Source: Erythroxylum novogranatense (Eukaryota > Streptophyta > Magnoliopsida > Malpighiales > Erythroxylaceae). From it: a stretch of 64,000 nucleotides of DNA. How positions within the stretch are numbered: position 1 is the stretch's first letter; each line of letters begins with the position of its first letter. Location of the stretch: NCBI GenBank assembly GCA_029891385.1, contig CM057235.1, forward strand, positions 12,798,001 through 12,862,000, written 5' to 3'. Shown piece by piece: positions 2,572-55,357 of the stretch. The notes beneath the pieces were generated by a model. It saw only the letters and a list, made by a program, of their open reading frames with translations, made no database searches and was not told where the DNA came from. The translations under genes and the position numbers were made by a program.

Positions 2572-5500
2572 TGTTGGATCCCGTTTCCGAAACCCAACTA
2601 CTCATACAGATTTCCTCATAAACGTTAGAAACCTTAGACATTCTAAAATCGGTGTAAATTTTTTTTTCCTCATATTCTTCTATTCTCTTTTCCTTTATTC
2701 AAACTCAATCACATTCGAATTTCGGGTAAATCGGAGGTCCTCATAATTTTTTTTATTTTTATTTTTATTTTTATTTTTATTTATTCCTTACTCCGATTTG
2801 GACGCACCATACCTCGTTGGAGAAAATCTTAACAAGTTCTACACACCTTAAGAAATACCTCCAAAGCTAATTCCATCATTAAGATAGTCTAAACGCATGA
2901 AATGGAGTTTACCAAATTTAGGAGAATTTGGACAAGACCTCCCCAAAATTGGATCTAGCCAAATTTTCCATTTCATTCCCATCTATAACCCCGCATAAAA
3001 ACACTTCTATCTTCCAACTCAATTGCACAGCCCATCCCCAACTCAAGGGCCACATCGCAATCTTAATCATCTATCATTTGAATTCTTAAAACTATTTCAT
3101 CTCATCCTTATTTTTATCATTTCCATGCATACATCCAGACATTCCTTCTTATAATACATACACTATACAATTGAAACTTCTAAACCTTACTAATGACATA
3201 AAACCAAAGCAATACTAAGAGTCAAAGGACATTTAGCCCGATTACATTCTCAAATATAACATTTAAAATCAATTGCATCGAAGTTGCTTCACTTAGATGT
3301 GGGACTCGGGCCTTGTGCAAGACACATGGAGGGAAAAGGGGTGAGCTCGACGGCTCTGTGGGTAACACATTTATACATTAAACAATAAGTGAAAATTTGT
3401 CCTTTTTAACTTTCAAACATTTCCCATTCGGGAATTGAAAACCTTTCAAAACAGTCATTTTCTCATTTCTCAAAATCTCAAACCTTTTTCAAATCATGCC
3501 CAGCTTTAAACATGAATGCATCACATCATAATCAAATTAAAATCACATAATCAACTCAAAATCACATAATACGTCAAGGAGGTTAGTGTTGGACCCCACA
3601 CCCCACCCGTAGGTGTTTGCAGGTTATACTGTGGCGTGTGTTTGTGGGTGATACCGCGGCATCCAACACAAACCACATAACACATCAAATGGTTTGGTTT
3701 GGTCCTAACAAGACGTACTGCACATTCCCGCATAGCGGTTCTGTGCAGCCGTGAATAGAGGGAAGTCCGAGATCGGAACTCCTATACCACTAGCGGGCAG
3801 CCGGGCGAAGGCTATAAACATGTAGAGACCAGTGCACTGACTCACAACGGACCTAACCAAACCCACATAGCACTTAAGCAAAACGGAAATTCAAATTACC
3901 CGAAGGCACATTTCAAAATTTTGATTTTCATATTGGCACATTCTCATTCACAATTTCACATAATTCACATAGCAAATCAAATATCATTACCAGTCATCAA
4001 TAAAGTATGCAATACTTTTGATAATTTTATCAAAATCATTCATAAATGATAAATGCACAGAAGTATCAAATCTCCATAATTGACAAATCCTTCAAGTATC
4101 ATGAATTTCAGAAATTTTCTTCATTTATCAAAACATTTTGAAACTCGTAAAATAATACTTAGCTTATAATTCGAAGTATAAATATCTTACCCACCTGAAT
4201 TTTCCTTAAGCTTTAGGATTGACCACATTGTCCTTCTTTAATCTCCACGAGCCTTAATTAAGCATAACAATGCTAATTAACAATAATTCTCAAGGCTGGA
4301 ATTTTAAAAGAACGTCAAAACTTGACTTTCAACTTTCAAAAATCTCATTTATACTTTAACTCAACTATAACATCTAAAACCTATCTCAAATGAATCAATT
4401 ATATTTAACAATCTCATGTCTAAAAGCTACTCAACAAATCTAACTTTTTTTTTTTTTTTTGACTTTCACAACCCATGTTCCTTCCTTTAACTCTAAGATA
4501 GATCTCAATATCTCAATTCATTTTCAAGAAACCCATTAAACACAAAACCCTCATTTCGAGGATATATCATTGCTGAAATTTTGTAAAGAAAAGAAAACAT
4601 GCAAATTCTTTCATATAACCTCACAAAACCATAATCGACAAATGGGAACAATGCTGGAAATTTTCCCAAACCTCCATTTCTATCTAATTCTCCATACTAA
4701 GCACTTCAAATATACAAGTCATTCATTCCAAGGTGATGTGAACCATTTCTATTCACACTTCAACATCTCATACCCAATTACGAGTCCCTATATGATCATA
4801 CAACACAAATCATATCCTTTTAATTACACTAAACACTCGAATGAACATGATCAAGAACATCCATTTACAACTATCTCCACATTCCATCTTAGTACTTCAC
4901 TTACCCTACATTCATTCACTCAATAACCCAATCAATAACTCAAAACCAATCATGATGTAACATCTAGCATTAAACAAGAACCAAAACAGAACATATATAG
5001 CTACCCTTTTATAAACCTCTTCCTAACCCATCTTACCCATACTTTACTTAAACCAATAGCATCAACACGTATTAAATAACCATCAAGATTTGAAAATCTC
5101 TAAGTTTAAAACCCCTTCACAACAATTCTGATTTTTCCGAAACTCAAACCCCAACTTCATACTCATTCTTTTCTTCTACTCATTCTTCAAATCAAGCAAG
5201 AAAAGATAAAACCTAACAATCAAAACCATGAATTAACAACTAATACACATGCTGATTTTCTTTCCACTTTCCTAATTCTTCTTCTTTCATTTACTAATCC
5301 TTCACTCAAACCATCATTAGCAAATAAGAAAGAATAAACCTAACAATAATCATGAATTACCAATCAATACTCATGCTGAAATTTTTCTTGGAATGGCAAA
5401 CTTGGCTTAAACAATCATCGAACTTTACCTAACTTTACTTAAACCTTTCTTAAGTCATTTAAACCCAAAACCCATCAAGAAACTTAAACAAATTCCAGAA

Positions 5501-7996
5501 TTTTTCATACCCACGAAAACCAGATTTTCTCTCAACTTCCATTTACTCTTCTTCTTTTCTTATTCTTTCATAACCCAACTCTTCTAATCACTTCAACTCA
5601 TTCTAATCACCATTATCAAGCAAGAAAAACAAACGCTAAACAATAAAACCATAAATTACACATGCTGAAATTTTGGAAAGAATGGAAAAACTTCCATTTT
5701 CACTACCCTAACTTTCCTTATACCTTTGTTAAGCTACTCCAATTAAAACCCCCTTCAAAACCAACCCAAAAATTCGAAATTCCCAAACCCTAGGCCATAT
5801 ATGCATGCTGAAATTTTAATTAAGTCTCTATCATTCTTCCTCTTTTCTTTTTCCTTCACTATACTCTTCAATTCACCATCTTAACCAAGAAATGAAAAAA
5901 AAAAATCCAAATTCGAAACCCTAATTCATGAAATCTGAATTTTTAAACCTTCCTAATCTCTTCTTATTTCTTCATCAATCAACTTCCAATCATCATGCTT
6001 AAGCAAGAGAGGAAGAACTACAACAAGAAACTAAGAAAATTTCTAAATCCTTACCTTGAAAAGTGACCCATGACTTTCTTCTTCCTTTGGCTCAAATGGA
6101 AGACAACTCTTCCTCTTTCCTTTGGCTTTCTCGAGAACCCCTAAGAACTCCAAAGATCTTCACGTTTTTCTTCTTCTTCTTTCCCTTTGGATAGCCGAAA
6201 TCCTCTCTTCTTTTTTTTTTCTCTTTGGCTAGCCGAATCTCCCTCTCTTCTTCCTTTCATTTTCGTAGACTCCCTTCTCTTTTTTGTTTTCCCCAAAAAT
6301 AACGAGCTCCTCTCTCCTTTTTCTCCAAGTTTCCAGACCCTTCTATTGTTTTAAGCCATGTCATTAAATGGTAGGTAAGAGACCAAAGTGCCTTTCTCTT
6401 ATTAGCCTATTTTCAAGTTTGCCCCTGCACTTCCATTTGAAAAATCTGATACATTACGTCCAGAATTTGAGCAGCTAAACGAAATAATTTGGATAAACTT
6501 TCTGCATGGAAATTGTTCCTCTAGATCATACGAATCCAACGCCACTGACAGCACTCAAATCGGATCTAAAACGAAGAAGTTATAGCCAAATTACTAACTG
6601 ACCTGCACAAAATCCGAAACTGAACTTTAACATAACTTCAGTCCAGAATTTGACAATCTTAGGGATGAAATTAAATTTTGATCCCTTCACATGATTTGTA
6701 GCTCTATGTTTTAACTTTATTTTCCCTCAAGAATCAACTCAATCGGAGTTGTACAGCTCCCAAAAATCGCAAAATACTGAACCATGTTCAGAAAATTATC
6801 CAACTTATAACCTATAACTCATCTCTTACTTTGGTTCAATCAATCTCTTTCCATATCATCTCCTAAAAATCATAATTCTTCATAAAAATGAACGTAATTG
6901 TCTTAGGAATTCAATGCTTCAAGAATCAAATCAATCAGATGTCGGACGAAAGATTTATAACAAAAGATTGCAAAAGGGTCGGAGTTCAAGCAAAAGTTAC
7001 AAAACCTTAAATACCCACCTATAACTGAATTTTTCGAAAATCATATCTCTTAATTCCGAACTCGGAATTTGACGAATTTGGTGTCTATGGAAAGGTAAAA
7101 GGAAGCTCTACAATTTTCCTGAAGTACTCAAAATCAAATTAGGTCTTTAAAGGAGTCAAAACCTCAATCAAAGATTCTGTCCAAAATAGCTTTTCCTAAA
7201 CGACTTCCAATTTTTAATCGCTCATAACTCCTAGTCCCGATATCGAAAAATTACAAACTTTATGGCGTCGGAAAGATCGACATACAAGCTACAACTTTCA
7301 GTAAAGCCACTTTTTCCAATTCGACTAAATCCATAATGACGAGTGGCCTCAAGTACAAAGACATGCAAATCTATACTTAATAACATTTTCAAAACAAAGC
7401 ATATCTTTCGAAATTCATATCTCTCAATCCTGACGTCGAAAAATAGTAAACTTTATGTCCACGAAAAGCTCTCGACAGAGGCTACAAGTTTCACGTTGAT
7501 CATTTTCTCGGATTTTGCCTCAATTAAAAAGTCAATTTTTTTCTCAAAGTCAAACTTCAAACGAACTTTGACTGATCATAACTCTCACTCCCGATATCGA
7601 AAAATTGCAAACTTTATGTCTACAGAAAACTCTTGACATAAACTACAAGTTTCCAGAAGACCATTTTATCAAATTTTGCCTACATCAAAAGTCAACTCTC
7701 AAAGTCAAACATTCTCTCTCCAAAAAGTCAAACTTTCTAAATTCTTCAAATTTTCACACTTTTTCTCTTTAATTCTTGCTATTTAACTTCATTTCAATCA
7801 ACTCATCCACTTTCCTCTCATAATCCATATAAGTTCACTCAAATATCAAAGTCCTCAAAATTAAACAATTCATTTCTCATAAATTTTTCTTAATTTCATC
7901 AAATTTCCTTAAATTCATAATTTTCTCACCAATTTCTTTCTCATTTAAAATTTATTTTAATATTTCTATTTTTCATCAAAAGTTCGGGGTCCAACA
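2572..7996 (-). repeat. K 5' LTR (5425 bp)
   Basis: The terminus TGTTGG at 2572 and CCAACA at 7996 are inverted ends. Read on the minus strand, the LTR holds the 180-bp-scale modules (about 6500-7700), a purine-rich leader ending in a donor-like GTAAGG (6049-6054), a donor-like GTGGGTAAG near 4195, the 31-nt hairpin (3718-3748), a small GAGC/GCTC hairpin near 3342 and then the end. A (TTTTTA)n run lies at about 2747-2783 and a T run at about 4447-4460. No protein-coding gene is visible in the 5.4 kb. Confidence 0.78.
3718..3748 (-). other. 31-nt conserved hairpin in K LTR
   Basis: Plus-strand arms CTGCACA (3718-3724) and TGTGCAG (3742-3748) pair perfectly. Inside, CCGC (3728-3731) and GCGG (3735-3738) pair around ATA. 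Both internal-loop sides are TTC, which reads GAA/GAA in the element's sense strand. The same 7-3-4-3-4-3-7 geometry recurs in LTRs C, D, F and I. Confidence 0.75.
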
Positions 7997-8101
7997 AGCT
8001 ACATGGGAGACTGAGGAGTATATGAGGAGTCAGTATCCTCATCTATTCGATTGGACAGGTATTAAATTTCGAGGACGAATTTTTTTTTAGGAGGGGTGAA
8101 T
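7997..8101 (+). pseudogene. 3' tail of Tekay gypsy polyprotein of E1 (chromodomain end) and polypurine tract
   Basis: The frame at 7997-8090 gives a short chromodomain-like tail containing TWETEEYMRSQYPHLF, which closely matches the equivalent tail of E2 at 41574-41630. It is followed by the CGAGGACGAAT phrase and the polypurine tract AGGAGGGGTGAAT (8089-8101). The rest of the polyprotein is left of the inserted element K and outside the window. Tekay/Del integrases end in a chromodomain thought to guide insertion into heterochromatin. Confidence 0.8.
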
Positions 8102-8601
8102 TGTAACATCCCATTACTGATAGCAAGGGTATTTTCGTAATTCTGGGTTAGACTGATAAGTTTCATTGCATTCACTGATTGAACATGTTACTGCCCTCTA
8201 ATTATAGAGGCACTGGTTTCTTGCATATGCATTTATTCATAGGTACATGCATTCATGATTTTCCGGCATTTAATTGTGAGTGTAAATTGATTGGATTGTG
8301 AACTGACTGGACTGACTGGATTGTAATTGATTGAGAAATTAGGAGTAAATGGACTCGAATGACTGATTTAGAATAGCCTAAGAGTGACTGGTAATTGATA
8401 GTGATTTATAGGAAATTTTCGGGATATTTGGGAGAAAATACCCGGACCAAAAATTTTGGAGTGACAGACTGATTGACTGTATAATACTGAAAGAATGGTC
8501 CAATGACAAGGGAAATATTAGGGTTATACTGTTAGGAAATTAAAATGTTGAGCTATTGAAATTTAGAGACTGAAATTTGGACTGATTTGGAGACCTATGT
8601 C

Positions 8602-20932: not shown

Positions 20933-21757
20933 AAGATGAAGGGTAGGATTGAGTTGGAAAAAGCCAAAAATGTGATTGAAGAAAAGAGAGAAGAGAGAAG
21001 CACGAAAAAAGAGAAAAAGAAGAGAAAGAAGAGAGTTATGCTAGGTTTTGATTTTTCTTAGTCTTAAAGAGTGATTTTGAAGTTAAGAAAGAAGGGAAAA
21101 AGGAAGAGGAAGATTAGAGCCTTCTTTTGATCCAAAAAACTCATTAAGTGGTAAAGATTCAAGATAAGTTGAAGTTAAATCTTTTGGAGTCTTGGAAAGG
21201 TTTTGGTACAAAGAGCTTAGAAAATGCATGGGTTTAAGTATTCTAGGACCAATTTTATGCATATGTTTCTTTGGGTTCTCATATGGAATTCCTATTAATT
21301 TGGGATTTGTATCAATGTTGAAGAAAATCAAGGGAGGCAAGAGGAGCAAGAGGAGAGGCACATTTGAGCAAGTTATAAGCACGAAATTCAAGATGGGTTT
21401 CACTTTTATAATTAAGTAATAAGCCATTAAAGTTTCTTTCAAGAAATGACAATAAATGATTTTCAACTACTTTATTTATGTGCATTTATTGTTTTTTGTA
21501 AATGTTGTAAGAATGTGCTACATGGTTGTATATGAATTGTGTTAATTGTTGATGAATTAAATGATGAAAATGATTTTTGAAAGAATAGCAAGTTTACTAA
21601 ATCAAGTTTTGAAAATGCATAAAAAATATTTCGTGCTCATGAAATACGAGTTTTCAAAAAGTGTCATTTTGGACAACAAGTTTACAAGTTATGAAATATG
21701 TGTTATGTGGCCAGCTAGTGGCACGGAGCTCCTTTATAGTCTTCCTCAAGTTTACGG

Positions 21758-21788
21758 CTAAACAGGACCATTATGTGGAAATGTGTAG
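21758..21788 (+). other. 31-nt conserved hairpin in LTR F
   Basis: Arms CTAAACA (21758-21764) and TGTGTAG (21782-21788) pair with one mismatch. The inner arms CCAT and GTGG pair with one G-T around TAT. Geometry 7-3-4-3-4-3-7. Confidence 0.65.
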
Positions 21789-22504
21789 TGTGTCATATTT
21801 ATGGATCTACCCAAACTGTTTTGATATGCTATGTGTTCATGATAAGTGGATAATAGTGATGCATACACATTTTGCATAAACGTGAATTTTTGCATTGGAA
21901 ATGACTTTATAAATGGTTTTGCTTGTTACCAATTATAAAATTGTTACCCACGGGCTTTAAGCTCACCCCCCATTCTCCTCCCCTATATCTAGGTGATGAG
22001 CAAGATATTGAGTAGTTAAGGGTCAAGGCATCACTGCAATTTTTGTTTATTTTGTATTTGAAGCCAATCTTGTAAAGTAAGGCTTTAGTTGCATTTTGAG
22101 CAAATCATGGTTCATGTATCTTTTGTATTTTGGGATTGTAAGATATTAATGTATTCTTGGCTTGAAATGCCCACTAAAGCTTTGTAAAACTCTTATCTTT
22201 TGATGCAAATGGAATATAATTGCATTTTTGCTCATGATTCTCTCTCTCAAGTTTGTTCATTGCATTTTTAAGTTTTCATAAGGGAAAAGTTCATGTTCAG
22301 ACGTCAGGGGAAGATCTGAATTAACCTAGGCTGATTGAGACAAATGTGCCTTCTAGAAAGTTGTAGGTCTTTCTTTTAGCTTTCCATCGGTATATAGTAT
22401 AGAATTTTTGGAAATTTGGGTCTAAAGTTATGGTCCTTAGAAGGAGAGATGCTTAGGAGTATAAAGTGGTATCGTTTGTGATGACGTCATATCATCTATA
22501 AAAT

Positions 22505-22800: not shown

Positions 22801-23444
22801 ATTCGTTTGCTTTTTACTTCGTCTCTTTTTTGCTTTGTCTGCTTTTTTCTTCGTCTACTTTCTACTTATATGACATAAACTTCTTCTTCTATACACTATT
22901 CATGTTGGGACCCGTTTGTTGGAACCTAACCCCTTGGGAATATCAGAAGTCTTGAACGTATCGTTACTACATCATACTCTTTAATACATTACACACAAAG
23001 GGGGTTTTACAAAGCTATGATGGCTTTTCAAGACACTTTACAACATAAATCCAAAATCTCAAACTACAAAAGTTACATAAACTTCAAATTCTTAAAGTGT
23101 GACTAATCCTTGCATTTTACAAAGATAACTTAAACTCCAAGATATGCAGAATTTGAAGTATCATCCTTATACTCTTGATCACTCGATCTCTTGCTCATTG
23201 AAGGGGGTAAGTTTGAAAGCTTGTGGGTAATAGTTTATAATAAAAAGGCGATAAACAAAACTTTTGAAACCATCTTACTTGTCATAGAAAATTTTCATTG
23301 AGTTTATAAAACACATGTTTCTTAGGCTTTCAGCCAAATCCATAAGTAGCAAAAACAAGAATGCAACAGACTTGCTAACGTAACATGAGCACATGAGCAC
23401 ATGAGCACGTCAGAATAGTTTGGGTAAGTCCAAAACATGACACA

Positions 23445-23475
23445 CTACACATTCCCATATAATGGTTCTGTGTAG
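23445..23475 (-). other. 31-nt conserved hairpin in C 3' LTR
   Basis: Arms CTACACA (23445-23451) and TGTGTAG (23469-23475) pair perfectly, and CCAT and ATGG pair around ATA. Compared with K both the outer and inner stems changed sequence while keeping pairing. The internal loop is GAA/GAA on the sense strand. Confidence 0.75.
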
Positions 23476-24283
23476 TCGTAAACTTGAGGGAGTCCTTGAA
23501 GGAGCTCCGTGCTACTAGCGGGCAGGCGGGAGAAGCCTATACTTGGGTCAACGTGCACGTGACGGTTCTTGAGAGACTACCACAAACCCACATAACACAT
23601 AGATTTCAAAAATCTTGAAAATTTGTTGCCCAAAATGACACTTCTTGTAAACTTGCTTTTTCATATACTTGATATATATCTTGAAAACCATTCTCGAAAA
23701 CATGATTTCATGTACATTTGATCTTTTCAAAAGAAATCATTTTTATAAATCATCTCACAACTCATGTAGAAAATACATAGCAGATTTCAAAAATCATGCA
23801 AAAACAAAAGATGCAACACTTATGATGCAATTGAAATTAGTAAACTCCTTTGCTTTAAAGAAAAATAGTAGTGGCTTATTTACTCTATTATAAACATGTA
23901 CCCACCTGATTTTCTTGCTTATTGGCTTGCTAAAAGTGTCTCTTCTCTTTGCAAACAACCTGGGGTCTCTAAGACTCTTTCCTGTTATATCATTAATGTG
24001 TTATCCGTGAGCTAATTTAACTGAAATAGGTCTCTTCGATCCTTTCGGTTCTTCAACAAATGAGGAGGTCCTTGGCTTAAATGGAAGCTCTTCTTTTCCT
24101 CTACCTTTTTCTCTTCTTGAACCACCTCAAAATTTCTCTTATAGGATAAGGAAATTGAAACCCTAGCTTGGTTTCTCTTCTCTCTCTCATTGTCTTCTTC
24201 TCTTTATATTTCTCTCTCTTTTTCATGACATTTTCTTTTTCTCTTTTTTTTTTCTCATTTTTTTATTCTCTTCTGCTTCCTTC

Positions 24284-24291
24284 CATTTATA
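24284..24291 (-). promoter_or_regulatory. TATA box of C 3' LTR
   Basis: Minus-strand TATAAATG lies before a purine-rich (AGAAGAG) leader. The same site in the other LTR is at 46209-46216. Confidence 0.5.
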
Positions 24292-25559
24292 GGCAAGGCA
24301 ACACTTCTTCTTCCAATTTTGCCATTCCATTTATGCCTTATGTCTTTTACACGTAAGTGTCTTGCCAAAAGCAACCTTGAATATTCTGACATAACACTTT
24401 ATTCTAGAAGAATCTTCTCTATTGTCTTACATTCCCAATGACACCAAAATCATTCCATTTGGGTCAGTGATTCAAAAATACACTTTAAACCTTTTTGGAC
24501 TGCTTTTGTCCAAATCAGCATATTGTGCACAACCCCTATTGAAAATTTTAAACCCTTTAAAAACTAAATTTGACTTCATATTCTTCATACCATTTGTAGC
24601 TCCGTGTATCTAGTTTATGTTGAAATAAGAATCATCTTATTCAAAGCTCTACTGATCCAGAAATCATTAAAATATTTAAGCATGTTTAGTAAAATATCCA
24701 ATTCCTCACTTCCAATTTATACCCTTACTTGATTTAATACATCTCTTTCAAATCAACACCAAAAGCTATGACCTTTAATGGAGACACAAAAAGAAAATTG
24801 TTAGGAATCAGAGGGTTCAAGAATCACTTCATTTAGAGGTCAGATAACAAAATTATGGCCGAAAGAATCAAACAAGATTTGGTCCTCAATCATATCAAAC
24901 TTGTCTCGGGACAAATGGCATAACTTTCACCAGAGATGTTGGATTAAGATCATATTAGGATGATTTCAAAGAGAAATTTGAGTTCTACAACTTTGAAGAA
25001 GAGCTTGAGGTCAGATTTTATCATCTGAATGGTCAAAATGGACCAGATAATAGGATTAGACAAAACCAAAGGAAAAAGCAGAAGAATGGAAAAAGACAAA
25101 AAGTGGGAAAATTGCTATAACTTTCCCTACAGATATTGGATTAAGATGTTCTTCATATGGTTTTAAAGAAGACTTAAAGATCTACAACTTTCATACAGAC
25201 CTTGAAGACAGATTTTATCTTCTGAAGGCAAAAATGGAACAGAAGATAGGTACAGATGAAGTCAAATGAAAAACAGAAGAATGGAAAAAGACAGAAGAAA
25301 TGGGAAAATTGCTATAACTTTCCCTACAAATATTGAATTAAGATGTTTTTTATATGGTTAGAAATAGGACTTCAATATCTACAACTTTTATGCAGACCTT
25401 GAAGACAGATTCTATCATCTGGAGGGTCAAAAATAAACTAGAAAATAGCAAAAAGCAGAAGAAGCAAAAAGACTGAAGAAGTTCATAAACAGTAACCCAG
25501 AAGAAGTTTATGAACAGTAACCTAAAAGAAGCAAAAGATAGAAGAAGTAAAACCTAGAA

Positions 25560-25960
25560 GGAACAAAACCCAGAACAAGACACGTCAACAAAACATAGAT
25601 GAAGACGTGTCAGCAAAACATAGAAGAAGTCACGTCAGCAAAACACAGACGAAGACGCGTCAGTAAAACACAAAAGAAGACGCGTAAAAAAACACAAAAG
25701 AAGACTCATCAGTAAAACACAAACAAAAACGCGTTAGCAAAATACAGAAGAAAATGCGTCAACAAAATACAAAAGAAGGCGCGTCAGCAAAACACAGAAG
25801 AAGACGTGTCAGCAAAACACAGAAGAAGACGCGTCAGCAAAACATAGACGATAGCAAAACACAGACTATTGCAAAACACAGACGATACAAAAACATAGAC
25901 GATAGCAAAACACATACGATAGCAAAATATAGAAGATAGCAAAAAATAGATGATACAAAA
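25560..25960. repeat. ACGCGT/CAGCAAAACACAG tandem array in C LTR
   Basis: Units of about 22-25 bp (GAAGACGCGTCAGCAAAACA) repeat more than ten times, decaying to 19-bp units at the right. The core ACGCGT or ACGTGT is palindromic or nearly so. The truncated 5' LTR copy ends within this array at 47308. Confidence 0.8.
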
Positions 25961-26860
25961 CACAGAAGGAGATGACATCATCACAAAGAAAACCCAGAAG
26001 GAGATGACGTCATCACAGAAGAAGCTACTCCTCTCTTGCACATCATCCCTTATAAGGACCATGATTTTCGGTCTAGAAGTCCAAAAACTCCATACTATAT
26101 AGCGTTGGAAAGATAAAAAAAGATCTTCAACTCTCGAGGAGGGAACTTTCCCAAAATCTATCTAGATCAATCCCAATTTTCCCCTAAAATCCCAAGATGA
26201 ATTTTACATTCATCCACCAATGTGCTACACTTAGTTATCACTTCATGACAAATTTGAGACTCTTAGAGACAGAATTGAAATTTGATGTCTTCATAAGAAA
26301 TGTAGCCATATGTTTCTAGTTTAATATAAATTAATAATCATCTTGTTTGGATAACTAGAGAAAAAGATATGGCTAACAGACCGAAGCAAACTCAATAAAC
26401 ATTTTCCAGATCAACCACCCAATTTTGTTTCACATTCTTTCCTTAACACAAATCATACTAAGGCTATCTTTTCTACTTCATTTACTCCTCATTCTCAACT
26501 CCATTTCAAATCAATATCGCCCATAAAGAAATTTATAATCCATGACTAATCATGAAAACCAATGACAAAACATAAACATATATACATATTCCTCATCAAC
26601 TTACTACACATATACAACTTCATTTTTGGCTTTCATTCTACTTCTAACTTTCACCTTAATTCTTCTTACTTCAAATTCTTTTATCCATTAGAAACACCAA
26701 AGCAAACTTAGACATATCCACATTTCTCATTTGCTACTTTACCCTTGTCTATCATTTCTTGGTTCAAGAATTTTCATTTATTTGCTCTTTACTCATGATT
26801 ACTTGCCAAAATTTCTCCTTCAAATAGTTCTAACTTCTATGAAACATTTAGGGTCCAACA

Positions 26861-29676: not shown

Positions 29677-30023
29677 TGTTGGGACTTGTTTTCCAGAACC
29701 CAAACTCTTGCGAATATTAGAAGTCTTGAGCGTATCTTTACTACATCATACTCTTTAATACATTACATACAAAAGAGGTTTTACAAAGCTATGATGGCTT
29801 TTCAAGCCACATTACAACATAAATCCAAAATCTCAATCTACAAAAGTTACATGAACTACAAATTCTTAAAATGTGACTAATCCTTGCATTTTACAAAGAT
29901 AACTTAAACTCCAAGATATGTAGAATTTGAAGTAACATCCTTATACTCTTGATCACTCGATCTCTTCGTCATCACCTGAAGGTAGGGAAAGGAAGGGGGT
30001 GAGCTTGAAAGCTCGTGGTTAAC
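29677..30023 (-). repeat. C 5' LTR, piece 1
   Basis: It matches 22903-23230 with scattered differences. It includes a GAGCT/AGCTC mini-hairpin near 30001 and the acceptor-like CAG (29976-29978 on the minus strand), and ends with TTAAC, the left duplication of solo LTR D. Confidence 0.75.
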
Positions 30024-32886
30024 TGTTAGGACCCCACCCCTGCGAGTCATGTGCCCGACATCCTACGTGATATCTGGACGCACATCCCACAAGGGAGGAA
30101 TTCCACACCAAGCCAAACCTCAACGAAAATACTCAAATCACATACTTTCGAACAGATTTGAAAATTTAAAAGTCTTGGGTCCTAAATTGAAAATTGATTC
30201 CTTCAGATAAGTTGTAATTCCATGTCTCTAGTTTATTTTGAAATAAGAATCAACTCAAATGGATATCTATAGATCGAGATATCGTCAAAATATTAAATCT
30301 CATTCAGAAAATTTATCCAACTCAAACTCTTTTAACCGATCCTCTCACTTTGATTCAATCCATAATTTTCAAATTAATATCAAAACCTACAAAATTTTAT
30401 AGAGAGGTAGAGGAATGTCTTAGGAATCCAATGCTTTAAAAATCAGGTCAATCGAAGGTTGGATGAAAAAGTTATAAGCAAAAGAGTGGAAAGAGGTCAG
30501 GTCAAGGGAGGGAAAGGGCCATCGCGAGCGCCTGCGAATGAGCGGCGTCGCACTCGCGATGCGTGCGACCTCCTGATCCTTTTTCCTCCGATTACCTAAC
30601 TATCAAAATTCATATCTTTTGACCCAAAACTCCAAAATTTTCAAATTTGGTATCAATGGAAAGTTAAAAAGAAGCTCTACAACTTCCATGAAAGACTTGA
30701 AAACAATTCGGCCTCTAAAGGGGTCAAAATCCACCTCAAAGTGGTTGCCTGAAAAATGTCATCCTAAACAGTAACATAATCTCTAAAAATCATATCTTTT
30801 AGCCCCATGATCCAAAAATGTCATACTTCATATCAATGAAAAGATAAAAAGATAAAATTCCACCTTCAAGAAGACTTTATAAACAAATTTTACCTTTCTA
30901 AGGGTCAAAATTCCACTCAAACTTACTGTCCCGAAATTGCCAACCTAGACAGCACCCAACTTCTAAAAATTCACATCTTTCAACTCCCACATCTAAAAAT
31001 GGCATATTATACATCGTTGGAAAACTATGAAATTCCTCTATAACTTTCAAGAAGGCTACTTGATCCAATTTAACCTATATCAGTCTAGAATTTGCCTCAA
31101 AATCAGCATACACAAAACCTACCCTTATGGACATTTACAAAAACAATGCAAAGTAACCTTTGGAACAACATTGGCAAAACACAATAAAACCTGAATATCT
31201 TTCATTAATATCAAAATATGAGTTCTTACAAAGCTTTAGTGGGCATTTTTAGCTCCAACACATTAAAGTCTCAAAAATTCAAATTACAAAAAAGCCACAT
31301 GAACAGTAATTTTGCACCACAAATGCAACTAAAGCTTTGTTTACAAAATATAGCTTCAAAATCAACAAAAAGAAGCAAACGGGAGTGATGCCTTGACCTC
31401 AGCTTGGTCACTCGTTATCTTGCTCATTGCCTATGGATGGGAAGGAAAAGGGGGTGAGCTCGACGGCTCGTGGGTAACATGTTTAGAACTAAGAAACAAG
31501 CAAAACCCATTGAATCATTTATTTCCATAGCAAAATTTACATTGAAAACCATGCAACACATATTTTCCAAATTCACAACTTATTGAGCTATTCATAACAT
31601 CAAACATAACGCATGCATCAAAATGATCACAAATCATAAACACATACACATCGGAAATGGTTTGGGTAGATCCAAAACAGAACGTACTACACATTTTCGC
31701 GTAGCGGTCATATGTAGCCATGAACTTAGGGGAGTCTGTGAGGAGCTCCATGCCACTAGTGGGCAGGCGGGAAAAGCCTATAGACAAGTGCACTTGACTT
31801 ACTTAAGGGACCACCACAAACCCACATAAGTATGCATTTCACATTTTTCAAACATATTGCCCAAAATGACACATTTCCGAAAAGAAATTTTATAATAATA
31901 GTATCCTTTCAAAATCATTCACATACTTTTATAAATCATTAACACAATATGAAATCATTCCCAAAATTCATTTACAAAAACATAGGGCACATTCTTAACC
32001 CATCTTCAAGAGTAATAAATGTACATTTTCAAGGTAGTTGGAAATCATCTAATTATATTTATTTGAAAGAAGCTTTACTAGCTCATTTACTCAATTATAA
32101 AAATGTCACCCACCTTAAAAATCCCTTGCTTTAGACTTGCTCAAGATGCCTTTCCTCTAGCTCCTCTTGCCTCCCTTGAATTTCTTCATAATCACAAAAA
32201 CCCAAATCAAAAGAGATCTTAAAATTGGAAAACCTAAGGAAACAAAAGCATGAAATTTATCTTAGAACACTCATACCCATACTTTTCCTAAGCCATTTGA
32301 ACCAAAAACCCTTCAAAATTCCAAAAGATTTGAAAACAACTAACCTTGAATCTGCACTCACGATTTTTGCTCTTTGGCTCTAATGGAAGATCAAGTCTTC
32401 CTCTTTCTTTTTCCTTCTTAAAAAAAACTCTTAAAATCACTCTTCTAAAGCAAAGAAAGGTGAAACTCTAAGTTGTTCTTCTTCTTCTTTTCTTTCTCCT
32501 CTCAACCAAAACATTCTCCTCTCTTCTCCTTCTAATTTTTCATTCATTCTTCTCCTAACACACAACAAGTCTTCTTTCTTTCTTTTAATGAATCCAAAAA
32601 GACCAATCTACCCCTCCTTGTAAGCCTCGTACCTTTTTACCTTAAGTGATCTTCCCATTTTTCCCTTATACATTCATATTCCCTCAATTTAACTTACACC
32701 ATACTATACTCTAAGTTAATCTTAATTTCTCCATTTTATACTTCTAATTCCATCAATCTAAGCAATAAATCCTCCAACCATTGACATGCTAATTAAACTC
32801 TAACCAAAAGCAATAAATCAAACAAAACCTCAAAAATAAATTGAAAATCATGCTTATTCAATAAGAAAAGAATTTGGGGGCCAACA
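30024..32886 (-). mobile_element. Solo LTR D (2863 bp) with duplication TTAAC
   Basis: The ends are TGTTAGGACCCC and GGGGGCCAACA, flanked by TTAAC at 30019-30023 and 32887-32891. No internal region or second LTR is present, the usual outcome of LTR-LTR recombination. On the minus strand its start resembles LTR F. It contains modules about 180 bp apart (30677, 30859, 31037), a GC cassette with an ATCGCGAG/CTCGCGAT inverted repeat (30531-30560), the 31-nt hairpin and an acceptor-like CCATCCATAG (31431). Confidence 0.85.
31687..31717 (-). other. 31-nt conserved hairpin in solo LTR D
   Basis: CTACACA (31687-31693) pairs with TATGTAG (31711-31717) with one mismatch, and TCGC pairs with GCGG (one G-T) around GTA. 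Same 7-3-4-3-4-3-7 spacing. Confidence 0.65.
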
Positions 32887-33188
32887 TTAACAGTTTATAA
32901 TAAAAAGAAGATAAGCAAAACTTTTGAAACCATCTTACTTGTCATAGAAAATTTTCATTGAGTTTATAAAACACATGTTTCTTAGGCTGCCAAATCCATA
33001 AGTAGCAAAAACATGAATGCATCATACTTGTTAACATAACATGAGTACATGAGCACATCACAATGATTTGGGTAAGTCCAAAACATGACGCACTACACAT
33101 TACTATGTAATGGTTCTGTATAGTCGTAAACTTGAGGGAGTCCTTGTAGGAGCTCTGTGTCACTAGCAGGTAGGCGAGAGAAGCCTAT
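32887..33188 (-). repeat. C 5' LTR, piece 2, between D and E2
   Basis: It resumes with the TTAAC duplication and AGTTTATAATAAAAAG, matching 23231-23547. It contains the hairpin at 33093-33123 (CTACACA/TGTATAG, one mismatch; CTAT/ATGG) and ends in TATAC, the left duplication of E2. Confidence 0.78.

Positions 33189-35528: not shown

Positions 35529-35562
<34 letters not shown>
35529..35562. repeat. AT microsatellite in E2 5' LTR
   Basis: An uninterrupted TA run; the 3' LTR has a shorter, interrupted version at about 43998-44020, showing expansion since insertion. Confidence 0.85.
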
Positions 35563-35566
<4 letters not shown>

Positions 35567-37006: not shown

Positions 37007-37018
37007 TGGTATCAGAGC
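37007..37018 (+). promoter_or_regulatory. Primer-binding site of E2
   Basis: TGGTATCAGAGC, five bases after the 5' LTR end, is a perfect match to the plant initiator-Met tRNA primer site. Confidence 0.92.
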
Positions 37019-37129
37019 ATAGTTTGACATCTTTTGGGAAGAGTCAAATATGTTGGTATGAATTTTTACAGAACTGCAGAAATTGACTGGACTTCTTATT
37101 TTGTTCTAGGTTTTCTGTCTTAGGTGATC

Positions 37130-41110: not shown

Positions 41111-41117
41111 AGATAAG

Positions 41118-41630: not shown

Positions 41631-41657
41631 AAGAATTTCGTGGACGAAATTTTTATT

Positions 41658-41670
41658 AGGAGGGGGGAAT
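41658..41670 (+). promoter_or_regulatory. Polypurine tract of E2
   Basis: AGGAGGGGGGAAT directly precedes the 3' LTR; upstream is the conserved TTTCGTGGACGAAATTT. Confidence 0.88.
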
Positions 41671-45463: not shown

Positions 45464-47308
45464 TATACTTAGGTTAACGTGCACGTGACGATTCTTGAGG
45501 GACTACCATAAACCCACATAACACATAGATTTCAAAAATCTTGAAAGCTTGTTGCCCAAAATGACACTTCTTGTAAACTTGCTTTTTCATATACTTGATA
45601 TATATCTTGAAAACTATTCTCAAAAACATGATTTCATGTACATTTGATCTTTTCAAAAGAAATCACTTTTATAAATCATCACACAACTCATGTAGCAAAC
45701 ACATAGCAGATTTCACAAATCATGCAAAAGCAAAAGATGCAGCACTTATGATGCAATTGAAATTAGTAAACTGCTTTGCTTTAAAGAAAAATAGTAGTGG
45801 CTTATTTACTGTGTTATAAACATGTACCCACCTGATTTCCTTGCTTATTGGCTTGCTCAGAATGTCTCTTCTCTTTGCAAACAACATGAGGTCTCTAAGA
45901 CTCTTTCCTGTTGTATCTTTAATGTGTGCTCCGTGAGTTGATTTAACTGAAATAGGTCTCTTCGATCCTTTCGGTTCTTCACCAAATGAGGAGGTCCTTG
46001 GCTCAAATGGAAGCTCTTCTCTTCCTCTACCTTTTTCTCTTCATGAACCTCCTCAAAATCTCTCTTATAGACTAAGGAAATTAAAACCCTAGCTTGGTTT
46101 CTCTTCTCTCTCGCATTCTCTTCTTCTCTTTGTATTTTTCTCTCTTTTTCATGACATTCTCTTTTTCTCTTTCTTTCTCCTTTTTTTTAATTCTCTTCTG
46201 CTTCCTTCCATTTATAGGCAAGACAACACTTCTTCTTCCAATTTTTCCCTTCCACTTATACCTTATGTCTTTAACACGTAAGTGTCTTGCCAAAAGCACC
46301 CTTGAATATTTTGACATAACACTTTATTCTAGAAGAATCTTCTCTATTGTCTTACATTCCCAACGACACCAAAATCATTCCATTTGGGTCAGTGATTAAA
46401 AAGATACACTTCAAACCTTTTTGGACTGTTCTTATCCAAATCAGCATACTGTGCACAACTACTATCAGAAATTTTAAACCCCTTAGAAACTGAATTTGAC
46501 TTCAACTTCTTCATACCATTCGTAACTCCATGTATCTAGTTTATCTTGAAATAAGAATCATCTTATTCGAAGCTTTATTGATCCAGAAATCATCAAAATA
46601 TTTAAGCATGTTTAGTAAAATATCCAATTCCTACTCTTCCAATTTATACCCTGACTCGATTTAATACATCTCTTTCAAATCAACACCAAAAGCTATGACC
46701 TTCAATGGAGACACAAAAAAAAAAGTTTTAGGAATCTAAGGGTTTAAAAATCACTTCATTTGGAGGTCAGATAACAAAATTATAGTTGAAAAAATCAAAC
46801 AAGATTTCATCCTCAATCGTATCAAACTTGTCTCGGGACAAATAGCATAACTTTCACTGGAGACATTGGATTAAGATCATCTTAGGATGATTGCAAAGAG
46901 AAATTTGAGATCTACAACTTTGAAGAAGACCTTAAGGTTAGATTTTATCATCTAAAGGGTCAAATGGACAAAATAATAGGATTAGACGAAACCAAAGGAA
47001 AAAGCAGAAGAATGGAAAAAGACAAAAGAAGTGGGAAAATTGCTATAACTTTCCCTACAGATATCGGATTAAGATGTTCTTCATATGGTTTGAAAGAAGA
47101 CTTCAAGATCTACAACTTTTATGAAGATCTTGAAGATAGATTCTATCTTCTAAAGGCAAAAATGGAACTGAAGATAGGTACACATGAAGTCAAATGAAAA
47201 AGCAAAAGAATGGAAAAATACAGAAGAAGTAAAACCCAGAAGAAGACACGTTAGCAAAACATAGATGAAGACGTGTTAGCAAAACATAGAAGAAGACCCA
47301 TAAGCAAA
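45464..47308 (-). repeat. C 5' LTR, piece 3, truncated
   Basis: It resumes with TATAC and matches 23548 to about 25645. It includes the TATA box at 46209-46216 (minus strand) and modules near 46916 and 47107. Homology stops at 47308 inside the tandem array, so a deletion removed the rest of the LTR together with any right-hand continuation of F and G. Confidence 0.75.
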
Positions 47309-47699
47309 GTGGCATTTGCAACACACACTCAAGAATCATCCTAAAGGAACTATCAATTGAGAGAAAGGGGAATTTTTACTTATATTTAACTCTACCCTAA
47401 TCGATTATGAATTATCAGATTATTGGTCCTAGATGATCTTAGGGTTGATCATTGTCTCTTGTGTTATAACCATTAACCTTAAATTATAAACCCTAATCAG
47501 GTTATGGAAATTTGTAATTTCATAGTTAACAATATATCCAAAACTCTAATTAGATCTGAAGTTGTCCAATAAACTAACAGGAACCTATGTGAGATCTCTC
47601 TTTACACAATTACTGATTTGATTAATTTCTCATTCTTATTAAGTCACCTAACTTTTGTTAGCCTAATTTAATTATTTTTCATTTGATTATGTTGGACCC
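47309..47699 (-). repeat. Family A repeat, copy 2, piece 1
   Basis: An AT-rich segment with ACCCTAATCGATTATG and AGATCTCTCTTTACAC, which loosely aligns with 58600-58790. It ends in GATTA, the left duplication of element H. No gene is seen. Confidence 0.4.
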
Positions 47700-48439
47700 C
47701 GAACTTTTCTTCGAATGTAGAAATATGAAATGAGAAATTTTGACAATTATTCATGTGTAAAGAAAAGAAGAATTCTTGCATTTGAAATGAAGTGGAAAGG
47801 ATAGTTAGGACAAGATGGGTTATATGTGAAATATTGGAAGTTATAAGTTGAAACATGATCACAAAGTATGCTTCGGTATTTTAGTCATAACTTTTTCTCT
47901 AGTTATCTGAATGAGGTGATTCTTAATTTGGATTAAACTAGAGAAATAGGGTTACAAATTTTCTGATAAAATTGGGTTCTAATTCAGTCTCTAAGAAAGT
48001 CAATTTGTGGGTGGAATTTGAGCATAGCATATTGTTTCAACATAAAAACAGTTCAAAAATGTTTGGTGTATAACTTTCAGAGTACTGAACCGAATTGAAT
48101 GATTTTAGTATCATTGGAAAATTAAGACAATGAGGAACATTTCTTTAGAAGGAAGTACAAGCAAATTCCTTCAATTGCATGATTAGAAAAGGTGTTGATT
48201 TTTGGAAGTAGTTAAGCACGATTTAAATAAACTTTGAGGTCTTAATAGAGTATTTTGTGGAATTAATTACCATGTTAATGGGAGTTAATTAGCATGTTAA
48301 TTTGAGTAAGATCATATGGAATAGGTTGATTGAATTATTGTATTAAGGTGGTAAGTTTGCATGAGGGGCAAAATTGGAAGACCAATTAAGTCATTTAAGT
48401 TACAAGGCTTTAAGTGAAGGACAAAGTAGACATTAAGGG

Positions 48440-48448
48440 TATAAAAAG
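48440..48448 (+). promoter_or_regulatory. TATA box of LTR H
   Basis: TATAAAAAG after CATTAAGGG, then a purine-rich leader of about 130 bases ending AG followed by GTAAGTTT (48603), a strong donor-like site. Confidence 0.6.
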
Positions 48449-49677
48449 AAAGAAAGAAGACTTGGCTTAAATGGAAGAGGAAAGAAACGAAAATTTAAAG
48501 AGAAGAGGGAGAGAGAGTCATGGAGAGAAGAAAAGAAGAAGGAAAGAAGAAGAGAGAAGGAAGAAAAAAGAAGAAGAAAAGAAAGGGAATCATTTTGCTA
48601 AGGTAAGTTTATCTTCTTCTTCTTGCTTTGTTAGAGAAAGTGTTTATGTAGAGAATGGGTGTTGAAGAATATGATTTAAGGAACCCATTTGATTTTTAGG
48701 GTTTCTAAGCTAGGTTTTGGGTTTTCTAACCTAGATGGACAATGGGTAAGTTAGATTTGAGCTTGATTTATGTTAATTTCATTTGTTGTGATTTTAAAGT
48801 TTTAGGGATTTTGTGAAAATTGGGGATTTCCATTTGAATCAAAATTGAATGAGAGTTTTGGTTCGTTTTAGGAAATCAAAAGAAGCCCTATCCAAGACCA
48901 AGAGGAAGGGAACAATTGAGGTTGGATGTCCAAGCAAAATGAGACGGGTTTCATGTTTATAGTTAAATAATAAGCCATTAAAGTTTTTCCCAAATAAAGA
49001 GAATAAAATGATTTCAAGTATTTTATAACTGTGCATATATTGATTTCAAATGATTTAAAGAATTTGCTTATATGTGTGCAAATGCTCCATGAATTGGTTT
49101 TGAATTGTTGTGAATATGCAAAAATGCATTGTGATATATGATTATGTTATGTTTGATTTGAATGGAAAGAAGAAAAAGAACATGAAAAATATGAAAGCAT
49201 TTCATTTCGATGAAATGATTTTGAGCATTGCTTATGTGCTTTAGTTGGGCGAGAGAGGAACCGTTTCATTAGTCACGTGCACGTCAACATTAAGCCTTCT
49301 CCCGACTATCCTGTGGCCCACGAGATCTAAAAAATGGATTCATTTCGTTCATAGAGTAAACTTCGGTTTCTCTGTTTTGTTCACGAAACCCTCGAGCCAA
49401 ATTGTGTGTGCATTAGCATTTTGATGTGTTATGTTATGATGTGAATTGTGTGTTATGCTTGAATGAGAAATGACATCATTTGTGTTTAATGGGATGATGT
49501 ATTGAATTATGAGATGTGTATGGAAATTGTGAATTGTCAAGTTGGTGCATACATGATTTGCACTATTGTGAATTGGTTGAAAACTATGTTTTTCCTTAAA
49601 TTCGATAAGAATTTTTATATGATAAATGAATAATTTCAATGGTTTTGCTTATTATGGATTATAAACCTATTACCTAC

Positions 49678-49718
49678 GAGCTTTTTAAGCTCACCCCCAC
49701 TTTCCATCCCATCTTCAG
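49678..49718 (+). other. Mini-hairpin and acceptor-like pyrimidine tract in LTR H
   Basis: GAGCTT-TTT-AAGCTC (49678-49692) is followed by a pyrimidine-rich stretch ending TCTTCAG at 49718. Counterparts lie in F (21992), I (55707), C (29976, minus) and D (31431, minus), with the hairpin stem varying but usually paired. Confidence 0.55.
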
Positions 49719-50534
49719 GTAAAAAGAATGAGATCGGGAAATTAAGAGTCAAGGCATCATTTCGATTTTGTATATTTTGTGTTGGAAGTTAGATTTTGGA
49801 AAAATAAGATGTTTGAAGTATGTTGAGAATTATGGATTTTGTGTATTTCGTTGTATTTTGGATTTTTAATATTGATGATGTAATATGGCTTGGAATGCCA
49901 TTAAAGTTTTGTAAACATTTATCTTATGATGTAAATGAAGTATGATTTATGCATGGATGATGTGAAGTGAAACTAGGTATGTTTGAAATTATCAACTTAA
50001 GATGATGAGTCTTGAGCTTAAACTATTGTTATATATATATAAGTGAGATAGTATCGGAAAGAAAGATAGGATGTTTGGTGAATGATGAGATGGTATTGAA
50101 TATGAGGAGTCAAATGAATTGAGGGTGAGAGTTAGATGAATTCCAATTAGAAGTTGAATTGTTATGAATGATGTTGTAATAGAGGAAGTGAATTTGGGAT
50201 AATCCTTAAGTTTTTCATGAGGGTAAAATGTGTATTCTAACTTCTAAGGAAAAACTGAATTGATCTAGGAGGAATTAGACAAATATTTCTTCATGAAAGA
50301 TGTAGCTTGTCTTTTTATCTTTCCAACGATATAAAGCATGTCATTTTTGGATATCGGAGTTGAGAGTTATAACTATTACAAGTTAGGATGTCGTAAAGGA
50401 CGTGTATCCCGAATAATTAGAGCATATGAAGTGATATCGCAATAGAAAGAGTTGAATTTGGGAAGATTATGAGGAAAGGGGATGATAGAATGGGTTTAGT
50501 ATCCTTTGGAGGGGTCTTGGAGGGTGAAAAATTT

Positions 50535-50660
50535 GTGTCACCCGAAGGTTACACGGCCTTCCCGTGTAAAATTACATGGGTCGTGTGTTTCTGGTGCAGG
50601 AGCACATTCCACCCGAAGGTTACACAGCCAGCCCGTGTAAAATCACAGGGACCGTGTACA
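50535..50660 (+). repeat. ACACGG dyad cassette in LTR H
   Basis: TTACACGG (50549-50556) and CCGTGTAA (50562-50569) form a perfect 8-bp inverted repeat. The phrase CACCCGAAGGTTACAC recurs about 70 bp downstream with a weaker partner. The cassette lies before a GTCCGACCTCCGATTGAGGC phrase. Confidence 0.65.
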
Positions 50661-51446
50661 AAATGGCATAATACGATTTTTATGTCGACACAAAAGTTGT
50701 AGATCTGGGAATCTACTTTCTAATGGTACAAGAACAAATTCAATCAGATAACTATAGTGAGAGTTATGGCGTTTGCTCCAAAGCATGTTCAATAGGAGGA
50801 AAGATATGAACATGTTGGATTCGTTTGACCATAACTTTTTTGTCCGACCTCCGATTGAGGCGATTCATAAGGCGACAGATTCCTAACACGTTTTCATACC
50901 TCTCAATAAAAATTGATAGCCTTTGGATCTAAATTCAAAATTTTTTATGAAAAGGAAGTGAGGGATCGGTTTGGAGAACATGATTAGGTCATGAACATAC
51001 TTTGAATTTTAAGCATACCTTGAGCTAGAGAGCTCCGAATGAGGTGGTTCTTATTTCTACATAAACTAGAGACTAAGAGATACCATTTTGAAGAAGTAAA
51101 TTGTAATTGTTGTGATTTCGTTGTGTGGGCTCGCCTTTGTAGCTTGAGATGTCATGCGAATGAGGATTTTTTGATAAGGGTTAAAGAGCTTGGAAACCTG
51201 ATTATATTTTTTGACTCCGGTTCGATAGTTGTTATGCTCATGTTTTATGAATGGTTTTCGGATGTTGGGTTCCGAAAAAGGATCCAACATGTGTAGTATC
51301 AGAGCAAGCGGTTGGGCTTTGGAAATAAGCGGGGCCCAACAATTGTGGTATAAAAAAAATCAATGATGGTTAAGGAGACTTTATTGGAGTACGTTCATGT
51401 CTTATGGTTCCATTTAAGAGTTGGTTTCCGAAAATAGCGCCCAATA

Positions 51447-52945: not shown

Positions 52946-55279
52946 TGTCTCTGCTTTCCGCACGCACTTGTTCCCCAAACGACGTTGTTTTCGCTTCTTG
53001 TCTGCGATGTCGTTTCATTGTTATTCTCTTCAGCGTGCGGTCGTTCCTTCGCGTACGACGCCGTTTTCCTTTGCATGTTATGCGATGTCGTTTTGGTGCT
53101 TTTGTTAATTCCTTCTCCAAATCCGACCTTTGTTCAATCTTTCGCTTATAACTTTTCTGTCCGACATCCGATTGACTTGGTTTTTAAAGCGTTGAATTTC
53201 TAAGAGAATTATCTACATCCTTGTGGAAAATTTGTAAATTTTTGAGATTAAATTGAGGTTGATTAAATTAATCAAAATGAGTCGGGAAATTTTCCAAACA
53301 TAGTTCAGTATTTTGAGAAATTATTAATCTTTGATGATCCGATTGAAGTGATTCTTGAGTCAAAATAAAATTAAGACATGGGGCTATAAGTCATATGAAG
53401 AAATTGAATTTCAATTTAGCCCCTAAGACTTTCAATTTCTGAATGGCAGTTCGGATTTGTGTGCAGTCTTAGATTAGAAAAATCTGAAAGTATTTTGGCC
53501 TTAACTTTTGGTCTAATAATCCAAATGAGGTGATTTTTTATTTGGATTAAATTAGAGAAATAGATCTACAAATGTTATGAAGGACTTGAGTTTCAATTTT
53601 GTCTTTAAGAATGTCAATTTTTGGAAGGAAATAAAGTGCTGGAAAAATGTTTTAACATAAGACAAGTCCGAAATGTTTGGAGCATAACTTTTAGCATAGT
53701 GCACCAAATTAAATGATTTTGGTGGCGTTATGAAATTAAGACAATGAGGAACAATTCTCTAGAAGGAAGTTTTAGCAAATTCCTTCAAAATGATGATTTG
53801 AAAAATGACCTAAGCGAAACATGATTTTAATGAAATTTGGGACTTTGATTAATTTGATGATTTTAAGGACTTAATTAACATGTTAATGTGAATAATTAGC
53901 ATGTTAAATTGAGTAAAAGCATATGGGAAATTTGTGGAATTAAATTGAATTTAAATGTTAGAAATTATGGTTTAAAGAAGACATTAGGGGCAATTTTGGA
54001 AGATCACTTAAAGAGTTAAGGTTTTAGGCTTAAATGGAGGGGCTTTTTGGTCATTTTTCATTCATTAAAGGGGCAAGCAATGGGCTGTCGTTTTTAAGTG
54101 AATTAAAGAGCAACAAGTCATGACCTTAAGAGGAAAGAAGGAAAGAAATAAGAAGAGAGGAAGAATGAGAAGCTTCGAATGGGAGAAAATGAAGGAGAAA
54201 AAGAGAGAGTAACTAGGGTTTCGAATTTTTGGGCCTTCTAGCATGAGTTTTGAGTGATTCAAGGGGAAAGAGAAGGAAGAAGGTGAAAGCTTCCTCTCAA
54301 GCCCAATAAATCTGAAAATGGTGGAGAAATGAGGTAAGAGAAAATTTTGAGCTTTGAGTTTTTAATGAATTTTTGGTTTAGATAGCTTGGAAATCTTATG
54401 GGTTTGTGAGTTATGAAGTCAATTTTGGTGATTGCTTTGTTCTATTGGTTCAATTTTGGACAATTGTGAATTAGAGTTTATGCCCAATTTTTGTGGTTTA
54501 GAGATTTTGGAAGTTTTTGATTTAGATAGTTAGAATATATGAGAGATTTGTGTTTTCTAAGCTCAATTTGAGTAATTATGTTTTTTATGATGTTGAATTT
54601 TTGGGAATTTGGTTTAGGGAATTTTAAATTGGAGGAAAGAAGACAAGCTTCTAGCATTGATTCGAGGTGGGTAGTATGTTTATTTATTGAATTTTAAGCT
54701 AAGTGTGTATTTTTGAAAAATCAAGAAACAAAATTTTTTATAAATTATGTTTATGAAAATGTTTGAAATTTATGATTTTTGAAGGACTCAATTCCTTGCT
54801 TTGGGAATGATTTTAAGAAATTGCAAGATTTATGAAATTCATCGTTTTCGAATTATTCGAATATTTTGATGATATTGCTATGATTTATTAAATTGAAATA
54901 ATTGATGGATTTTATTGTTTTGAATAAAAGATGAGATTGCTACACGAAATTTTCGATGAAAAATGTTCTTTGTGTGTTTGAATTCTGATTTAAAGAAATT
55001 GATTGCCTTCTTTGTGATGAATTAAGATTGCATGTATTTTGCTATATGACTTTATGTGATTTGCGAATGTGATTTGTGTCGAGCACGACACTATATGAAA
55101 AATCAAGATTTAAAAATGTCCCTTCGGGCAATCCTAATTTTTCGATTTCAATTTATGTTATGTGGGTTTGGTCAGGTCCTATAAGTGGGACAAGTGCGCA
55201 CTTATCTATTTTTAAAAGCTTCTCTCGCCTGCTCACTAGTGGCATTGGAGTTTCGATTTAAGACTCCCATAAGTCACGG

Positions 55280-55357
55280 TTACATCGGGCCGCTATGCGG
55301 GAAGGTGTAGTACGTTTCGTTTACGGCTGCACAGGTCTGTTATGCAGGAATGTGCAG
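55280..55357 (+). other. Two tandem 31-nt conserved hairpins in solo LTR I
   Basis: First (55280-55310): TTACATC pairs with GGTGTAG through two G-T pairs, and CCGC pairs with GCGG around TAT. Second (55327-55357): CTGCACA pairs perfectly with TGTGCAG, and CTGT pairs with GCAG around TAT. Both keep the 7-3-4-3-4-3-7 spacing and are 47 bp apart start to start. This is the only LTR with two copies. Confidence 0.72.

Follow-up and report, generated by a model that had tools for sequence, protein, structure and literature searches.

Parallels for a structured RNA within a long terminal repeat (LTR) are known from retroviruses and plant retrotransposons. BARE2, a parasite of BARE1, retains dimerization and packaging signals (PMC3735527, excerpt), and stem-loops have been connected with the residual conservation seen in long R regions (PMC3601003, excerpt). 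Palindromic motifs with CCG/CGG cores occur in the LTRs of Sireviruses, where they are short, are repeated many times per LTR and are treated as regulatory DNA (PMC2829016, excerpt), and long LTRs are typical of Del elements (PMC4029996, excerpt). Conserved RNA structure is a feature of large retrotransposon derivatives (LARDs) and other non-autonomous plant LTR elements, which are presumed to be mobilized in trans. Here, we analyzed a window of 64,000 nucleotides from Erythroxylum novogranatense (assembly GCA_029891385.1, contig CM057235.1, positions 12,798,001 to 12,862,000), in which an earlier note had pointed out a 31-nt hairpin that recurs at seven LTR sites.

We interpret this hairpin, with a probability of about 0.5, as a cis-acting RNA structure in the LTR leader of a Ty3/gypsy-like family with long LTRs and apparently no coding capacity, kept under RNA-level constraint of some kind. 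The family is similar to LARDs in that it is presumed to be mobilized in trans and in that one member (element A) has two long LTRs (the 3' one truncated by the end of the window), a primer-binding site (PBS) and a polypurine tract (PPT); we found no coding domain in its hairpin-bearing copies in the window. It differs from them in that element A has only 689 bp between its LTRs, and the fold is a small hairpin inside the LTR. In contrast to the Sirevirus motifs, the hairpin occurs once per LTR, except for two copies in one LTR (H). As a probable structured RNA in an LTR-derived leader, it resembles retroviral R-region stem-loops and the BARE signals.

A hairpin shared by six LTRs

All seven 31-mers have the positions, strands, arms and loops previously described, but they lie in six diverged LTRs rather than seven, LTR H holding two in tandem (Table 1). 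They are homologous copies at a homologous position, not independent occurrences. The fixed two-stem pairing held up well: of the 77 stem cells, 74 are paired (68 by Watson-Crick and 6 by G-U pairs), the remainder being two A-C and one A-G, and sliding the 3' partners by 1–3 columns left 10–56% of cells paired, compared to 96% in register. Furthermore, all 11 core pairs are Watson-Crick at two sites in the window, a result obtained in none of 12 shuffles. The claim that all seven sites fold was borne out in part, as five of the seven 31-mers outperformed all 200 of their dinucleotide shuffles, while those at 33093 and 21758 did not clearly do so and the fold at 31687 was shifted.

The outer stem turned out to be longer than the 7 bp originally proposed. 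RNAalifold extended it to 11 bp by pairing ACGG with U(bulge)CGU, with one bulged purine and a total length of 40 nt; with G-U allowed, this 4-bp extension is complete in six of the seven copies, and the copy at 55327 has one C-A. The alifold energy of the whole-core alignment was -38.9, compared to a mean of -20.8 (standard deviation 3.9) in 60 column shuffles.

At every one of the seven sites, the more stable strand is the LTR sense strand. The PBS and PPT, signals independent of the hairpin, define LTR sense for copies A and C, and the other copies were oriented by aligning them to these two; thus, the "sense" of the earlier note is the LTR sense strand. In the 3x3 internal loop, 18 of 21 cells are unpaired, 39 of 42 letters are purines, and the first position is G-A in six of the seven copies. 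The retention of an unpaired purine loop speaks against a simple palindrome in DNA and against copying between the arms.

The hairpin lies 1,146 nt from the LTR 3' end in LTR A and 542 nt in LTR C. A search of the window with model R1 recovered the six known loci and a weak place in LTR G. We also looked for signs of a retrozyme or other self-cleaving ribozyme; an Rfam scan of the whole window found no hammerhead or other known ribozyme motif, no Rfam family reached its gathering score, and the single sub-threshold match in each of two sub-regions was unrelated (expectation value E of 0.44 and 0.45). Four patterns gave 0, 2, 0 and 0 matches among viral contigs, the two being judged unrelated by eye, pattern scans of a collection of genome contigs gave 0 and 0 matches, and a reverse transcriptase (RT) protein scan yielded no confirmed relative. 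Such a hairpin is not described in the titles or abstract openings searched, in which subscription journals are thinly covered.

Table 1. Coordinates of the hairpins, accompanying motifs and host LTR features in the window
Feature	Position	Strand	Remarks
Hairpin, LTR A	3713..3752	-	40-nt extended form of 31-mer at 3718; 11/11 core pairs Watson-Crick; -21.3 kcal/mol
Hairpin, LTR C (31-mer 23445)	23440..23479	-	core pairs 11/11 Watson-Crick; -14.8 kcal/mol
Hairpin, LTR E (31-mer 31687)	31682..31721	-	inner stem with one C-A mismatch; -13.0 kcal/mol
Hairpin, LTR D (31-mer 33093)	33088..33127	-	decayed inner stem, one C-A mismatch; -10.3 kcal/mol
Hairpin, LTR F (31-mer 21758)	21754..21793	+	one A-G mismatch; folding no better than shuffles
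Hairpin 1 of 47-nt tandem duplication, LTR H (31-mer 55280)	55276..55315	+	A-U to C-G double transversion
Hairpin 2 of 47-nt tandem duplication, LTR H (31-mer 55327)	55323..55362	+	
Small upstream hairpin AGCC/GGCT, LTR A	3798..3814	-	
Small upstream hairpin AGGC/GCCT, LTR C	23523..23539	-	
Small upstream hairpin AGGC/GCCT, LTR E	31764..31780	-	
Small upstream hairpin AGGC/GCCT, LTR D	33171..33187	-	12.3-kb coding element inserted at its edge
Small upstream hairpin, LTR H	55215..55231	+	2/5 pairs broken
Motif 2, LTR E	31451..31476	-	ACCCACGAGC..AGCTCACCCC: short palindrome, branch-point-like CTCAC, pyrimidine tract, YAG/G
Motif 2, LTR piece ending at 29677	29996..30021	-	
Motif 2, LTR H	55662..55687	+	
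LTR A (5' LTR)	2572..7996	-	5,425 bp, TGTTGGACCCC...GGATCCAACA
PBS of element A	2556..2567	-	TGGTATCAGAGC
Inter-LTR region, element A	1883..2571	-	689 bp only, PBS and PPT (AAGAGGGGGAGAAA) included
3' LTR of element A	1..1882	-	truncated by window edge; 98% identical to 6115-7996
LTR C (3' LTR)	22903..26860	-	3,958 bp; PPT precedes
LTR G	47690..51289	+	same family; motif 2 at 49670

Covariation in the stems

Five of the 11 core pairs are changed on both sides. Pair 26-30 occurs as C-G, U-G and U-A, and pairs 15-41 and 25-31 show no A-C or G-U intermediates (14 cells). The covariation score was reached by none of 500 shuffles, an excess of a kind that relatedness alone can produce. We compared three contrasts (55280/55327, 23445/33093 and 31687/21758) to a two-lineage neutral simulation that started from a perfect CpG-rich hairpin and accumulated an equal number of differences (4000 replicates). 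The rates came from LTR comparisons in the window: four comparisons at 91–98% identity gave a transition fraction of 0.67–0.74 and a rate at CpG or CHG sites (H being any base but G) that was 6.5- to 8.6-fold higher, while the E/F pair (65% identity) gave 0.53 and 2.9-fold.

We found 4 double changes over the 11 pairs (1.04–1.23 simulated) and 3 broken pairs (8.4–9.0 simulated), for a joint P of 0.001–0.003, or 0.008 when the transition fraction was raised to 0.86. Over 15 pairs that include the extension, the corresponding values were 4 double changes (1.17–1.39 simulated) and 4 broken pairs (10.3–10.9 simulated), with a joint P of 0.0005–0.002, or 0.0065 at a fraction of 0.86. As to the relationships among copies, the core flanks of C and D are 86% identical, and a sister relationship between E and F is not clear (flank identity 0.69); the E-F path should share no branches with the C-D path if C and D are sisters. 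Two double transversions, each in one copy, are beyond the reach of deamination: A-U/C-G in the hairpin at 55280 and, in LTR A, G-C/C-G in the small hairpin further upstream. Thus, the excess of double changes and deficit of broken pairs relative to neutral simulation, together with the strand preference and the kept loop, moderately support selection on pairing, as the earlier note had argued from the paired changes.

The hairpin is also modestly better conserved than its surroundings, but the flanks are not far more diverged as had been stated: within a ~165-nt core, mean identity is 0.73 over the 40-nt hairpin and 0.64 over the flanks. Hairpin identity exceeds that of the flank in 17 of 21 pairs.

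Weighing the interpretation

A number of results weigh against RNA-level constraint. Folding as well as the native 31-mer was seen in 13 of 200 shuffles for 33093 and 29 of 200 for 21758, and the geometry by itself is weak evidence, with at least 9 of 11 pairs Watson-Crick at 27 sites in the window compared to ~20 per shuffle. The antisense alignment of the whole core folds about as well as the sense alignment (-38.2 vs. -38.9), so that the argument from strand draws on the hairpin alone. LTR G has no hairpin match, even though model R1 reaches the right place in it (47690-51289) at E 0.12, and in the E/F pair the hairpin window (identity 0.68) is no better conserved than its neighbors (0.72–0.78). 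Of the five measures compared to shuffles, that of further pair types gave no excess, as 434 of 500 shuffles scored as high in one count and 203 of 500 in a second. Among single-sided changes, G-U outnumbers A-C by 6:2 over the 11 core pairs, short of significance on its own, and by 14:3 over the 15 pairs, a ratio biased by the choice of the added pairs on the sense strand. The simulation result comes largely from one contrast, the tandem pair 55280/55327, which supplies 3 of the 4 double changes; moreover, the simulation presumes a perfect ancestral hairpin, the test was picked after the data had been seen, and the sample consists of seven related sequences from a single window.

The apparent compensation might instead be a relic of an ancestral inverted repeat, which we think unlikely. 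In such a repeat, both arms share CpG and CHG contexts, so that deamination of methylated cytosine could remove the same C/G pair independently in each arm and the loss would look compensated. Indeed, the double changes at 15-41, 24-32 and 25-31 sit in CHG or CpG contexts, the stem changes are mostly transitions, and transitions are elevated at such contexts by the factors measured above. With 95% transitions the joint P rose to 0.04 at a 20-fold context rate and to 0.07 at a 50-fold rate, the latter not rejecting the neutral simulation. At the measured rates, however, 8–11 broken pairs were simulated and only 3–4 were observed, and the two double transversions and the lack of intermediates at pairs 15-41 and 25-31 also count against this explanation.

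We also considered that the dyad might act as DNA, being bound within the LTR by a dimeric protein; it would then be comparable to the palindromic repeated-motif boxes of Sireviruses. Dyad symmetry with CCGC..GCGG would suit such a site, and LTR boxes that are palindromic around a CGG-CCG core have been described (PMC2829016, excerpt), but the sense strand folds better in all seven copies, the internal loop is kept although it is asymmetric as DNA (GAA vs. TTC), and there is a single copy per LTR save one tandem pair. The tolerance of G-U points the same way, yet its excess over A-C falls short of significance, and on balance we regard a DNA-level site as rather improbable. Arm-to-arm correction would produce concerted changes with no selection at all. 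Quasi-palindromes can be corrected by template switching during reverse transcription or replication, which copies one arm into the other. This process predicts several simultaneous double changes, as seen between 55280 and 55327; it should also erase mismatches of the internal loop, which persist in 18 of 21 cells, and G-U pairs, which persist as well, making it the least probable of these explanations. The retrozyme, Sirevirus-box and quasi-palindrome readings are not preferred.

If the hairpin is a cis-acting RNA structure, as we favor, its region is presumably transcribed and its fold would be recognized as RNA. The hairpin would then sit within R/U5, the portion of the LTR that is transcribed, and hence in the 5' leader of the genomic RNA, where the Gag protein of a helper element could use it to recognize unspliced genomic RNA, either for packaging or for dimerization leading to it. 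Copies would decay neutrally once inserted, and this would account for the damaged hairpins of D and F. Because all recognition signals must sit in the two LTRs and the 689 bp between them, recognition of the RNA by helper Gag is the most likely step. By analogy with the BARE signals, we tentatively name packaging or dimerization as the likeliest role, while considering it possible rather than probable. For elements that apparently borrow all their proteins, a well-defined hairpin whose pairs are open to testing would be a way into the question of how the Gag of a helper selects foreign RNA. More generally, palindromes in methylated plant LTRs can mimic covariation, and CpG/CHG rates from the same window are a usable control.

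Accompanying motifs

The main hairpin is accompanied by other conserved motifs (Table 1). About 45 nt 5' of it is a small hairpin, AGGC/GCCT, with 23 of 25 cells paired over five copies; it reads AGCC/GGCT in copy A (a G-C/C-G swap) and is missing from copy F. Motif 2, ACCCAC-GAGC..AGCTC-ACCCC or a variant, lies 200–400 nt 3' of the hairpin and occurs seven times in the window, twice in hairpin-less LTRs; in five of the seven copies it is followed by a pyrimidine tract and YAG/G. Copies A, C and E also have AG/GTGGGT (-399 to -449), which is altered in F and was not found in H. TTTATA(A/C)T is present in the same three copies and in F (-353 to -434); LTR D is interrupted in the region of both.

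From their letters, the motif 2 block may be a splice acceptor, AG/GTGGGT a splice donor and TTTATA(A/C)T a TATA box. Taken together, the hairpins between the conserved donor-like site and the conserved acceptor could form a psi-like RNA domain shared across a clade of plant elements with long LTRs, such that only unspliced RNA would keep the domain and be replicated; we consider this extension doubtful.

In LTR A, an 82-bp insert (3587-3668, minus strand) lies between the hairpin and motif 2; it starts TGTTGGATGCC and finishes GTGGGGTCCAACA, resembling a tiny copy of the family LTR ends. Roughly at the expected hairpin place in LTR G, there is an unrelated hairpin with a UUCG loop (49350-49382, plus strand; z -3.6, with 1 of 200 shuffles folding equally well), which we found by looking and left out of the hairpin count.

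The host elements and their neighbors

LTRs of the hairpin family start TGTTGGACCC and finish GGATCCAACA or close variants (TGTTGG...CCAACA). Element A has both long LTRs, a PBS and a PPT ending at 1883, and its two LTRs have 1.88 kb in common, at 98% identity. In 1883-2571 and in 26861-29676, the search for stop-to-stop frames of at least 75 amino acids found none on the sense (minus) strand, and the seven plus-strand frames of at least 75 amino acids in 26861-29676 matched no Pfam family at E 0.1. The hairpin is perfect in LTR A and also in LTR C, whose LTR pair is 91% identical (296 bp), and we therefore dropped the argument that a perfect hairpin marks a young copy.

LTR D is interrupted by a coding Ty3/gypsy element (33191-45463, 12.3 kb) flanked by the target-site duplication TATAC (33186-33190 and 45464-45468), which we take to be Del/Tekay from its ends and RT. 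It has the same PBS letters as the hairpin family (TGGTATCAGAGC) and a similar PPT context (GAGGACGAA...GGGG), but its LTR ends are TGTAACATCCC...GCTACA, as opposed to TGTTGG...CCAACA, and model R1 found nothing in it up to an E of 10. Among the named entries in the best 120 of the 7,996 scored relatives of its RT (38868-39728), most were from plants, including Tanacetum, Smallanthus, Sesamum, Theobroma and Gossypium, and three had bacterial names.

A different hairpin, GAATTTCG-AGGA-CGAAATTC, occurs in perfect or near-perfect form just 5' of the PPT in two TGTTGG-family elements (1883-1925 and 26861-26900, both minus strand), and at TGTAACATCCC-type LTR starts a similar stretch stands before the PPT (8060-8102 and 41628-41671, both plus strand). 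Tandem repeats are present within the hairpin-family LTRs, with units of ~197 bp (24893-25891) and ~25 bp (46820-47358). Finally, the plus strand of 11844-15800 has long open frames (831 and 339 amino acids) that, by eye, resemble the RT of a non-LTR retrotransposon followed by an RNase H-like part.

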